Assembly (NCBI RefSeq): GCF_003612125.1
Contig: NZ_RAWI01000055.1
Span: 1-34,439 of the forward strand
From: Corallococcus praedator
GTDB taxonomy: Bacteria > Myxococcota > Myxococcia > Myxococcales > Myxococcaceae
Direction: 5' to 3'
Length of the DNA: 34,439 nucleotides
In this document: piece after piece, positions 11,065 through 14,313 of the stretch
Layout of the letters: each line of letters begins with the position of its first letter
Numbering within the stretch: the first letter of the stretch is position 1
Program-made: the position numbers and the translations under genes
Notes under the pieces: model-generated
Told to the model about the DNA's origin: nothing
Seen by the model: the letters and a program-made list of their open reading frames with translations, nothing else
Databases searched by the model: none

Positions 11065-11117
11065 CGCGCCTTTTATTTTCTCTAGGCTCTCCACTTAACG
11101 CATTTCACGCCTGCGCT

Positions 11118-11161
11118 TATCGGCCGGTTCCGAGGAGCTTTGAATCGGCCGATATCTTTTT
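11118..11161 (+). terminator. Intrinsic terminator of the glycosidase gene
   Basis: TATCGGCCGGTTC (11118-11130) pairs with GAATCGGCCGATA (11142-11154): 13 bp with one G-T pair and an 11-nt loop, followed directly by TCTTTTT. This is the best-formed intrinsic terminator in the window. It points along the + strand and marks the boundary before the AT-richer DGQHR segment. Confidence 0.85.
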
Positions 11162-11175
11162 GGCAAACGCGGCCG

Positions 11176-12576
11176 CTACTCCCGAGGGCTCAGTTCCGCC
11201 AGGTAGCGGATGATTCCCGGCAGAACCAGAATCGATTCATTGTGGCGGCTACCGAAGCGAAGCTTTCCGTCAATCAACCCTCCGATGGACTTCTGGCGCC
11301 AGTTGTCGGGCAGGTAATCCAACAGCTTCGGGTAATGAGACAGCTTCTCGTCACCAAGGTTCTCAATGTTCCAAAGCTGGTTGCCATGGGAGAAGTCGAT
11401 CGTCGGGAGGCGTCCCAGGAACTTCTCTGCTACCTCGCGCCCTTCCGGCTTCCTGCCCCAAAGGATCTCAAAGTACACACGGGCGATTGACTTCAAGAGG
11501 GCCGGCTGAGCGGCTACAGATTGACCACGGTCGAAGATTCCGGGGATCTTGGTTACAGCAGTCCAGAAGGCCCAAGCGTCCTCTTCACGTTCAATAACAG
11601 AAGCAGTCGCTCCCGAAATGGTCGTCTGATTGAGAAAAAGCCGCGCATTAACAGCATTGAGGGAGTCGAGCTTCATCCACTGCGGGTCATCCCAATCAAC
11701 ACGCCCCTCTTCCACAATCGACACGCCCTCGAACATCGGATCGCTCTTGAGCCGGTGCGTGAAGATGTTGATCGGGTTCGACTGATCGAAAGCCTGCGCC
11801 TGACTGGTCGATACAGTCTTCTGCAAGTTATTCAAGTCGTGAAAAAGCTGTTTCTCCTGTTCGATCGTCAATCCGAAGTGGATCTCGATCGTAATCGAGA
11901 ATCGCTCAGTGAAGTACGACATTGCCTCATGCCAAAAAGGCGCTGCATCTTCGTGAACCTGCTTCAGTTCAGCGGGAACCAAACCACCAGACTTGGTGTA
12001 TTTGCGGTCGCGCGTCACCTGCTGAAGGTAGTCACGCACCAGTCCCCAAGCGAGTCGACGGTGCTGGCCATCCACGATCCAGAGTGTCTGGTTCGAGCGA
12101 AGCTTCAGAATCAGTTCACCGGCGGATTCAGGGATCGGAACCACCGTGATGTCACTCATTTCATCCCGAATGGATGCGACAACCGGCGCCCATGCGTAAT
12201 AGGGCTGGTTTCCGAGATCAGTCTTAATATTTTCGATCTCGGTGGGGAGTTTCCGGCCCGCGTCTTCCCACTTCTTGCTGGTGAAATTGACTAGGCCCTT
12301 GAAAATGAACCGCGCCATCTTGTGGGCATGGGTCATGTCCGGCTTGCGCTGAGTAACCGGTCCCTTCAGTGGATCATTACCCACCATGGACTGGAGAAGG
12401 AACGTCCCCATATCCACGGTGGTAACCATCGTATTCGAGCCGAGATTAAGCGCTCGTTTCACACGCAACTCGATGAAGCGATTGCCCCCTGAGTAGTCCA
12501 GCATATCTGCGAGGGTCGTCTCCCTAGGGCCAGCAACGTGCAGCTTAGAGGGGGTAGCGGTGTGACTATCCGACAT
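11176..12576 (-). CDS. Orphan DndB-like DGQHR-domain protein
   Basis: The 466-residue protein contains the exact motif IVDGQHRRLAWG (DGQHR at residues 169-173) and a downstream LFHDLNNLQKTVSTSQ segment (Asp247-Leu-Asn) matching the layout of the DGQHR/DndB family. DndB proteins accompany phosphorothioate DNA-modification genes and act in regulating them. Here no dndA, C, D, E or restriction partner is present. The protein is about 100 residues longer than typical DndB. No signal peptide or membrane helix is seen, so it is probably a cytoplasmic DNA-associated protein. A good AGGA site precedes the ATG. Base composition is clearly AT-richer than its neighbours (about 52% GC in a line I counted) and codon use is mixed, which points to horizontal transfer. 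An array of CCWGG repeats covers its promoter. The molecular role is unknown. Confidence 0.8.
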   Translation of the reverse strand: MSDSHTATPSKLHVAGPRETTLADMLDYSGGNRFIELRVKRALNLGSNTMVTTVDMGTFLLQSMVGNDPLKGPVTQRKPDMTHAHKMARFIFKGLVNFTSKKWEDAGRKLPTEIENIKTDLGNQPYYAWAPVVASIRDEMSDITVVPIPESAGELILKLRSNQTLWIVDGQHRRLAWGLVRDYLQQVTRDRKYTKSGGLVPAELKQVHEDAAPFWHEAMSYFTERFSITIEIHFGLTIEQEKQLFHDLNNLQKTVSTSQAQAFDQSNPINIFTHRLKSDPMFEGVSIVEEGRVDWDDPQWMKLDSLNAVNARLFLNQTTISGATASVIEREEDAWAFWTAVTKIPGIFDRGQSVAAQPALLKSIARVYFEILWGRKPEGREVAEKFLGRLPTIDFSHGNQLWNIENLGDEKLSHYPKLLDYLPDNWRQKSIGGLIDGKLRFGSRHNESILVLPGIIRYLAELSPRE

Positions 12577-12596
12577 TGGGCATCATCCTTAGAGCC

Positions 12597-12758
12597 ACCA
12601 GGCTCATCGTTTTTGGCAACCAGGCGAAAGGATTCTTTCGACCAGGCGAACGCTATATTCATCGAGCGCTGGCGCCTTGTCAACGCCTGGCGAGCAGAAA
12701 GTCGCATGCCCCTGGTGGGATCTTACCGCCAGGCGGACTTTACACTCCCGCCTGGCAA
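12597..12758. repeat. Eight CCWGG-core repeats with about 22-bp period (operator/iteron-like array)
   Basis: Nine-base units of the form N-CCWGG-YGR occur at 12597 (ACCAGGCTC), 12619 (ACCAGGCGA), 12641 (ACCAGGCGA), 12667 (CGCTGGCGC, degenerate), 12685 (GCCTGGCGA), 12710 (CCCTGGTGG), 12728 (GCCAGGCGG) and 12750 (GCCTGGCAA). Centre-to-centre steps are 22, 22, 26, 18, 25, 18 and 22 bp, an average near 22, about two helical turns. Six units fall on one 22-bp lattice. The array fills the intergenic space upstream of the DGQHR gene and overlaps its promoter. Intervening DNA is not conserved, so this is not a simple tandem repeat or CRISPR array. Confidence 0.75.
12652..12683 (-). promoter_or_regulatory. 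Candidate promoter of the DGQHR gene
   Basis: On the minus strand a perfect -35 TTGACA lies at 12683-12678. The -10 is less certain: GAATAT at 17 bp spacing or TATAGC at 20 bp (12657-12652). The AAGGA-type ribosome site and ATG 12576 lie about 75 nt downstream. Repeats of the array sit upstream of the -35, in the spacer and just after the -10. Confidence 0.5.
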
Positions 12759-12838
12759 GACCGACGCACCGCGCCATGGTCAAGTTTCTGATCGACCCGT
12801 TGTCTGTGGGGTGGTGTGACTTGCTTTGACCTCAAGAG

Positions 12839-12876
12839 GAGCTTGGCTCTGCCAAAGAGTCGGTCGAGACAAGCTC
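12839..12876 (-). terminator. Weak hairpin at the end of the isoaspartyl peptidase gene
   Basis: GAGCTTG (12839-12845) and CAAGCTC (12870-12876) form a 7-bp stem that includes the gene's stop codon, with a small nested CTCT/AGAG pairing. There is no T tract. It is a possible 3' end structure only. Confidence 0.25.
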
Positions 12877-14161
12877 ACGGCTGCTGGAAGATGGCGACGC
12901 TCGGCGTGCCGTCCTCGCCGATGTAGCCGCGATACATGCCGGTGGAGTTGAAGGGCATGGCCACGGTGCCCTGGCGGTCCATGGCGATGACACCGCCCTC
13001 GCCCCCGGCCTTCACCAGCACATCGTGGATGACGACGTTGGCGGCCTCCGGCAGCGGCAGGTCCTGGTACTCGACGCGGGCGCAGATGTCGCGTGCCACC
13101 GTGTAGCGGATGAAGAACTCGCCGTGCCCGGTGGCGGACACCGCGCAGCGTTCGTCCGCGTAGGTGCCCGCGCCGATGATGGGCGAGTCCCCGACACGGC
13201 CGAAGCGCTTGTTGGTCATCCCGCCCGTGGACGTGCCCGCCGCGAGGTTGCCTTGCTGGTCCAACGCCACCGCGCCCACCGTGCCGAACTTGTGGTCCCC
13301 CGTCACCGGATCCATGCCTGGCTCCAGCGATGAGGCAGGAGACTTCCCAGACGTCGCGGGTGGTTGCCCCGGCGTCGCGGGCTGCGGTCCCTGCTGCGTG
13401 GATGGAGATGCCGGCGACACAGGCGAGGCTCCTGGCGTCGCGGGCGGCTCACCCGGCGATACAGGCGCTGCTCCTGGCGTCCCGGCTGGCGGTTGCGTCG
13501 CGGGAGGCTGGCTCGGTGTGGCGGGCGGAGCCGCCTTCGCCTTCTCCTGCTCCAACGCGCGCTGGAGCCCCTGCCAGCGCTCCTCCGTGTAGAAGTACTT
13601 CGCATCCACCAGGGGCATGCCCTGCGACTGGGCGAAGGCCTCCGCGCCGTCGCCCACCATCATCACGTGCGGCGACTTCTCCATCACCCGCCGCGCCAGG
13701 TCGATGGGGTTCTGGATGTGGCGCACGCCGGCCACCGCGCCCGCCGCGCGCGTCTTCCCATCCATCAGCGCCGCATCCAGTTCATTCACGCCGTCGTGGT
13801 TGAACACCGCGCCCTTGCCGGCGTTGAAGTACGGCGAGTCCTCCAGCACGTGGATGGCGGCCGTCACCGCATCCAGGCTGCGGCCTCCCTTCGCCAGCAC
13901 CGCGTGCCCCGCCTGGAGCGCCTGGGTGAGCACGGCACGCATCGCGGCCTCGCGCTCCGGGGACAGGTTCTCGCGGGAGATGACACCCGCGCCGCCGTGG
14001 ATGACCAGCCCCCACTTCGGCTTCACCCGGGGCGGTGCATCCGTGCGCAGGACCGCCTCGTCGCGCGCCTGGGTAGACGTGGCACAACCGAGCGGGGCCA
14101 GCAGCAACGCGGCGCCAGCAAGCAGGCTTCGGTGCAACCAGGGAGAGAACGATGAGGACAT
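12875..14161 (-). CDS. Isoaspartyl peptidase / L-asparaginase (Ntn hydrolase), lipoprotein form with Pro-rich insert
   Basis: Members cleave isoaspartyl dipeptides and asparagine after self-cutting into alpha and beta subunits. Starting at ATG 14161 (AGGAGG 9 nt upstream) the protein has 428 residues and a lipoprotein-like leader (Cys26 in APLGCAT; lipobox atypical), so it is probably exported. Motifs are VIHGGAGV (53-60), SPYFNAGKGAVFN (109-121), the autocleavage/nucleophile Thr294 in FGTVGAVA, GTSTGG (309-314), RVGDSPIIGAGTYAD (322-336) and ATGHGE (344-349). Between the subunits sits an unusual roughly 70-residue Pro/Ala/Thr/Ser-rich linker (about 211-281) that includes a 14-residue tandem repeat. 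The catalytic set is intact. It is divergently transcribed from the PfpI-like gene with 198 bp between starts. The longer upstream open frame has no ribosome site. Confidence 0.9.
   Translation of the reverse strand: MSSSFSPWLHRSLLAGAALLLAPLGCATSTQARDEAVLRTDAPPRVKPKWGLVIHGGAGVISRENLSPEREAAMRAVLTQALQAGHAVLAKGGRSLDAVTAAIHVLEDSPYFNAGKGAVFNHDGVNELDAALMDGKTRAAGAVAGVRHIQNPIDLARRVMEKSPHVMMVGDGAEAFAQSQGMPLVDAKYFYTEERWQGLQRALEQEKAKAAPPATPSQPPATQPPAGTPGAAPVSPGEPPATPGASPVSPASPSTQQGPQPATPGQPPATSGKSPASSLEPGMDPVTGDHKFGTVGAVALDQQGNLAAGTSTGGMTNKRFGRVGDSPIIGAGTYADERCAVSATGHGEFFIRYTVARDICARVEYQDLPLPEAANVVIHDVLVKAGGEGGVIAMDRQGTVAMPFNSTGMYRGYIGEDGTPSVAIFQQP
13411..13494. repeat. Two 42-bp imperfect tandem repeats inside the peptidase linker
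   Basis: Units at 13411-13452 and 13453-13494 both begin CCGGCGA(C/T)ACAGGCG and share GCTCCTGGCGTC. Read on the minus strand they encode about 14 residues each (TPGAAPVSPG-type and TPGASPVSPA-type), which shows the linker grew by in-frame duplication. Confidence 0.65.
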
Positions 14162-14293
14162 GCCGTTGCGCCTCCTGAAGGGGCCTGACCTAAAGCTGTT
14201 CGTTCGCGCGCGTCCAGGCCCTCCGCCAGGGAGGGGCAAGCCAGCGGAATCCCGAGCCCCTGTCCGCCTGCCTGCCCTCCGCTTCCCCTCCCG

Positions 14294-14313
14294 GCAGGGC
14301 ATGTACACCCTGC
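14294..14313. promoter_or_regulatory. Inverted repeat in the divergent promoter region
   Basis: GCAGGG and CCCTGC are exact inverted 6-mers separated by the 8-nt CATGTACA, about 47 nt upstream of the PfpI-like start. It could be a dimeric regulator site acting on either divergent gene. No regulator can be named. Confidence 0.3.

Follow-up and report, generated by a model that had tools for sequence, protein, structure and literature searches.

The closest described counterpart of the locus analysed here is DndB (DptB) of Salmonella enterica, a DGQHR-motif protein reported to bind two inverted repeats (TACGN10CGTA) in its own promoter and to act there as a repressor, regulating its own operon (PMC4507180). 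Other papers cite reports of control by ATP (PMC12704722, PMC10853773), and a DndB-like protein is reported to bind both ATP and GTP (PMC12704722). Our subject is a DGQHR/DndB-like gene of Corallococcus praedator (11176–12576, minus strand; 466 amino acids), present once in a 10.5 Mb genome, and the array of CCWGG pentamers that precedes it on the 34,439-bp contig NZ_RAWI01000055.1, analysed in full and hereafter called ‘the window’. Whereas the Salmonella gene has its site twice and is followed by dndCDE, the window gene has a CCWGG array and stands alone, between a glycosyl-hydrolase-like gene and an asparaginase gene and with no linked dndCDE. The Salmonella site occurs in none of the 71 upstream regions of our DGQHR set and at none of ten dndB control loci; being absent from the controls too, it may not define DndB at large.

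Other systems, of possibly related fold, differ in their turn. The CTP-switch proteins ParB, Noc and KorB use another site word and another lattice, and no ParA partner lies beside the window gene. The DUF262 effectors SspE, GmrS and DndI carry or partner a defence nuclease domain, whereas domain profiles recognise none in the window protein; the literature passages on these effectors mention no CCWGG operator. The array is real and widespread, and in the titles and abstract openings of the open-licence papers surveyed we found no prior description of a phased CCWGG array with a DndB or DGQHR protein, nor of such a site code for DndB-type autoregulation.

A phased CCWGG array in the window

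Seven exact CCWGG pentamers (starts at 12598, 12620, 12642, 12686, 12711, 12729 and 12751) span 12598–12755. All seven fall within the 300 bp ahead of the start codon, for which 200 dinucleotide shuffles gave 0.94 copies on average and none (0/200) reached seven. Six of the seven lie on a lattice of two-helical-turn steps (gaps of 22, 22, 44, 43 and 22 bp). The features are as follows, the locus of a relative with an 80% identical protein (L004) serving for comparison; such a protein is found in the genus-mate Corallococcus sp. AS-1-6.

12598–12602: CCAGG lattice site, centre at −24 from the start codon; same offset in L004
12620–12624: CCAGG lattice site, centre at −46; same offset in L004
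12642–12646: CCAGG lattice site, centre at −68, 13 bp downstream of the predicted −10 centre; same offset in L004
12655–12660, minus strand: predicted −10 hexamer GAATAT (gene strand), 17-bp spacer; consensus scan
12678–12683, minus strand: predicted −35 hexamer TTGACA (gene strand); consensus scan
12686–12690: CCTGG lattice site, centre at −112, 2 bp from the predicted −35 hexamer; at −111 in L004
12711–12715: CCTGG off-lattice site, gaps of 25 and 18 bp; missing in L004
12729–12733: CCAGG lattice site, centre at −155; same offset in L004
12751–12755: CCTGG lattice site, centre at −177; same offset in L004

Some details of the original prediction need correction. It had counted eight repeats, of which the seven exact ones stand; the eighth, a near-copy (GCTGG at 12668), is off the lattice and has a different sequence in L004, so that the proposed spacings of 22, 22, 26, 18, 25, 18 and 22 bp give way to true gaps of 22, 22, 44, 25, 18 and 22 bp. 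The extended unit N-CCWGG-YGR does not hold either: YGR is found at only five of the seven window sites and is no family feature, since the flanks of 193 CCWGG sites are AT-rich, with no position at which one base exceeds 47%.

The word itself is not rare in this GC-rich window (225 copies versus 136 in shuffles); what is unusual about the array is its clustering and phasing, not the abundance of CCWGG, and the window’s only chain of at least three lattice-spaced sites is the one upstream of the gene. In L004 the offsets of the six lattice sites from the start codon agree with those in the window to within 1 bp; the 12711 site has no counterpart there, and an additional site lies at −205. Outside the cores 53 of 165 positions are identical between the two, while the six lattice sites keep their distance; the W base differs at four of these six, as expected of a palindrome with a free centre.

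The array in front of related genes

Similarity of the encoded protein alone, with no regard to the DNA upstream, served to collect further loci: 53 from bacterial genomes, one from a related genome (L003), five of six plasmid matches (H6, 27% of the query, was left out) and 12 viral contigs. Duplicate loci (L001, L002, L057) and one that is cut off (L052) were excluded; the remote loci L054–L056 and the weak viral match L074, which have no array, stand outside the counts. L028, near-identical to L022, is omitted from the 50-locus count and the spacing analysis and retained in the 51-region count, the chain count and the tree; L050 is in the counts and outside the tree.

With lattice gaps defined as 20–23, 31–33 or 42–44 bp, at least two lattice-spaced CCWGG sites lie upstream of the gene in 43 of 50 bacterial loci, window included (shuffles average 0.68 loci, with a maximum of three), and at least three in 38 of 50 (0.01 on average in shuffles). 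The phased motif that, for the original prediction, was to be looked for upstream of homologues is thus found in most of them. All five plasmid regions likewise have at least two. Across 51 upstream regions, again counting the window, we find 192 CCWGG against 28.9 in shuffles, and the word ranks first among 32 palindromic pentamer classes (CCSGG: 18); even AT-rich DNA is included, with four sites in L029 (23% GC upstream) and five in L041 (25%). Seven phyla are represented among the loci that have two sites or more: Myxococcota, Acidobacteriota, Planctomycetota, Verrucomicrobiota, Bacteroidota, Bacillota and Pseudomonadota. Actinomycetota is not counted, since the locus recorded for it (L043, a Nakamurella silvestris record) is probably foreign to an actinobacterium and may be a contaminant: its contig has 34% GC and its gene groups with that of Acinetobacter apis.

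Spacing is conserved along with the word. The 57 regions contain 164 adjacent gaps, of which 90 measure 21 or 22 bp; the classes of two, three, four and six helical turns together account for 136, and no gap is of one turn; pairwise distances between CCWGG sites have a period of 10.85 bp (R 0.706; random 0.105, maximum 0.225). Degenerate sites midway in gaps of 41–45 bp were considered and rejected, the 20 sequences having no common core by eye. In the 749,775 bp of collected DNA, 44 of 46 chains of at least three sites (L022 and its near-copy L028 both counted) sit upstream of the DGQHR gene, the other two being in L033 and L048. In L033, L040, L022 and L028 the arrays are some 250–355 bp from the start codon chosen by rule. 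On the Paenibacillus plasmid pPC02 (L062) the DGQHR gene is broken, annotated in four pieces; two CCWGG sites are retained there, positioned as on the twin plasmid pPC01.

A prediction fixed beforehand was put to new searches, which returned five extra loci, two already known (L042, L038) and three new (L121, L123, L125); each of the new ones has two or three lattice sites (3/3, a small number). Control genes behave differently. No CCWGG chain precedes any of ten dndB genes on plasmids (dndC follows in nine cases), and two of the ten have a single CCWGG upstream. At most one is seen in front of L101 and L102, two further stand-alone ‘DndB’ genes from Bacillales, and of an Aeromonas copy (L104), and none in front of the remote L054–L056; the array therefore marks this subfamily and not all proteins named DndB.

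Comparison within the genus adds a second line of evidence, concerning the following stretch:

11070–12874: about 1.8 kb carrying gene and array, absent from congeners; six have 26–55 bp there

In those six, out of 15 loci compared in congeners, just 26–55 bp separate the flanking genes. The other nine have no part of the stretch in the flanks fetched; seven of these also lack the upstream glycosyl-hydrolase-like gene, and two have the asparaginase side alone. Gene and array are thus missing together, and in the 80% relative (G029) both stand at a different genomic place. At the empty site (window 11065–11075 and 12870–12880) a GC-rich inverted repeat, likely a terminator, is seen by eye in five of the six congeners. 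In the adjoining asparaginase gene (12875–14308, minus strand), some 67 residues longer than the Pfam profile over the matched span, a repetitive stretch at about 13320–13560 coincides with the place where the congener alignments break.

The DGQHR protein as candidate reader of the array

The window protein matches Pfam PF14072 (DndB; E = 2.2e-23) with 83.3 bits, above the gathering score of 29.1 for this broad DGQHR superfamily, and scores 55.7 bits against NCBIfam TIGR03187 (DGQHR), slightly below the cut-off of 58.85. The canonical DndB model TIGR03233 (curated cut-off 328 bits) does not match it at 1e-3 and weakly matches 45 of 57 aligned members, at best with E = 1.9e-10. The DGQHR pentapeptide (D169–R173) is invariant across the 57 aligned sequences. 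Plain Foldseek on an AlphaFold2 model (mean pLDDT 85.1, pTM 0.66) gave no match below E 0.001, and solved structures searched by sequence gave no convincing one. Structure comparison over residues 45–253 or longer spans scored SspE 7.7, ParB 7.4, Noc 7.2, PadC 6.9, DndI 6.3 and KorB 5.8; judging by these scores, the N-terminal half of the modelled protein may well have a ParB/Srx-type fold, in agreement with PMC4619093, and DGQHRR would stand at the position of the ParB C motif.

As far as sequence comparison reaches, then, a conserved, phased, palindromic array goes with the DGQHR gene and lies at its predicted promoter. With the same layout in front of most relatives, from seven phyla, it is most likely the protein itself that binds the array and so governs its own expression; we consider it probable that the array is an operator and that the DGQHR protein, occupying the CCWGG sites, holds down its own promoter. 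The original prediction of an operator read by the neighbouring protein gains support from the recurrence of the array and from the joint absence of gene and array in congeners. The protein, probably as a dimer, would sit symmetrically on each CC-W-GG palindrome; binding at adjacent sites on one helical face would be cooperative, with gaps of two, three or four turns tolerated, and the occupied array would block RNA polymerase at the predicted promoter that the sites flank. Judging by the fold and by relatives, occupancy may be gated by ATP or GTP in a ParB-like pocket around the DGQHR motif, in which case protein level would track the nucleotide pool or invading DNA.

The promoters in question are sigma-70 consensus predictions, one best candidate per locus and with no chance comparison. 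CCWGG sites lie at or beside them: in the window their layout around the predicted promoter suits repression, and in a number of other loci a CCWGG falls near −31, −10 or +12 relative to the centre of the −10 box.

Several observations weigh against an autorepressive operator. Seven of the 50 bacterial loci fail the CCWGG test. Two of these, L021 and L024, have CCATGG in place of CCWGG, with CCCATGGG present twice, before the −35 and in the spacer; they form one supported two-member clade nested inside a CCWGG clade and distinguished by 11 protein positions, and L121, a 77% relative, has CCWGG. (A BglII-type endonuclease gene lies alongside L021, and Vsr and NOV_C genes alongside L024 and L014.) The other five (L014, L023, L032, L036, L045) have no lattice array upstream, nor have eight of eight viral contigs (L066–L073) and the phage REC. 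Homologues without repeats, which the original prediction would have counted against itself, are therefore a minority: five bacterial loci and these eight contigs.

The phages deserve separate comment. A tblastn query with the window protein finds the gene in 21 of 50,697 phage records. REC, a carrier, has no CCWGG in 50 kb (77.9 expected), and the carriers VCM, NoPa, UAVern and Ep020 have none in 25 kb each (44–51 expected). We rejected the idea that this avoidance reflects activity of the gene, since phages without the gene avoid the word as well: phiPsa374, PPSC2, Bobbio and psageK4 have none (33–48 expected) and KIL4 has five (36.7 expected). Avoidance is thus a trait of the phage lineage and no evidence for the protein. 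Nine of ten stretches from Pseudomonas phages and relatives (L105–L114) lack CCWGG altogether (33–78 expected), and GGWCC is likewise avoided in several of these phages. The contigs L066–L073 hold zero or one CCWGG each (three of the eight encode identical proteins); from their similar upstream DNA and lack of CCWGG they were judged by eye to be of the same phage type, and a genome that avoids CCWGG could hardly host the array.

The last of these points concerns the direction of control. Seven Bacillota loci have sites upstream of the predicted promoter only, a layout that would suit activation too: in L027, L037, L039, L042 and L059 every promoter-near site precedes the predicted −35, the closest being 31–33 bp from the −10 centre, and L020 and L061 also have upstream sites only. 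The protein might then read the array and chiefly activate its own gene, since sites just upstream of −35 would coincide with class I/II activator positions. We think this unlikely. Both in the window and in a number of loci from Pseudomonadota there are also sites within the spacer, or +9 to +14 and +31 to +36 relative to the centre of the predicted −10, and protein bound there would block polymerase; moreover, Salmonella DndB represses (PMC4507180).

CCWGG is the Dcm/EcoRII site. A widespread host factor, such as a Dcm-type methyltransferase or its readers, could thus use the array with the DGQHR protein as bystander, and Vsr homologues do adjoin L014 and L024, with a cytosine methyltransferase gene two genes downstream in L060. 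That is very improbable, however: the arrays accompany the DGQHR gene in seven phyla and almost all chains lie upstream of it, a methyltransferase has no need of two-turn spacing, and gene-less congeners have no array at the equivalent place. Just as improbable is an iteron or centromere-like element through which a mobile element replicates or partitions and for which regulation would come second. In favour of it, the modelled fold is ParB-like, several copies are on plasmids (one of 5.8 kb, another some 3 kb from a ParA gene) and a replication initiator lies near L025. Against it, the array keeps to the gene start on every type of replicon and no common rep or parA neighbour stood out among 113 adjacent open reading frames (ORFs; best 25 of 71 families). 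The ‘iteron’ label first offered is not supported.

Mobility and significance

These 113 ORFs were picked mechanically, the neighbours of the remote L054–L056 included, and no frequent partner gene appears among them (best 25 of 71 families; for PADLOC, best 25 of 108). The matches listed include HTH_3 (4), resolvase (3), Vsr (2) and integrase (2); defence-island or operon partners were rejected, no frequent one being found among those matches. A genome-wide search for DndE gave nothing, its controls also giving no match, and the PADLOC DndB model at 1e-20 matched nothing in 195 Myxococcota genomes, no control matching either. Some loci adjoin integrases, resolvases, toxin–antitoxin genes or plasmid genes, in keeping with mobile DNA. 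The gene is sparse: it occurs in 3 of 96 genomes of the family, and searches of other families gave 2 of 104, 4 of 394, 2 of 398 and 1 of 397; every figure includes the genome from which the query came. Gene and array appear to be a small self-regulating cassette whose parts move together.

As to any further role of the DGQHR protein, defence against mobile DNA is our likeliest guess. A bolder picture, and a rather unlikely one, is that of a stand-alone, mobile, nucleotide-gated CCWGG reader: the ParB-fold protein would nucleate on the array, polymerise or slide, sense the nucleotide state of the cell and mark or silence CCWGG-bearing DNA, and Pseudomonas phages that avoid CCWGG and have the gene but no array could direct the protein against CCWGG-rich host or rival DNA while sparing their own.

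Many bacteria have stand-alone genes that are annotated as ‘DNA sulfur modification protein DndB’, and we found no job described for them. CCWGG at every two turns, in seven phyla, offers for these genes a candidate binding site and a predicted cooperative assembly on one face of the DNA; the change from CCWGG to CCATGG in the sister clade would be a natural specificity switch with 11 candidate residues; and the putative operator code sets the array-bearing genes apart from the true dnd operons with which they share a database name.
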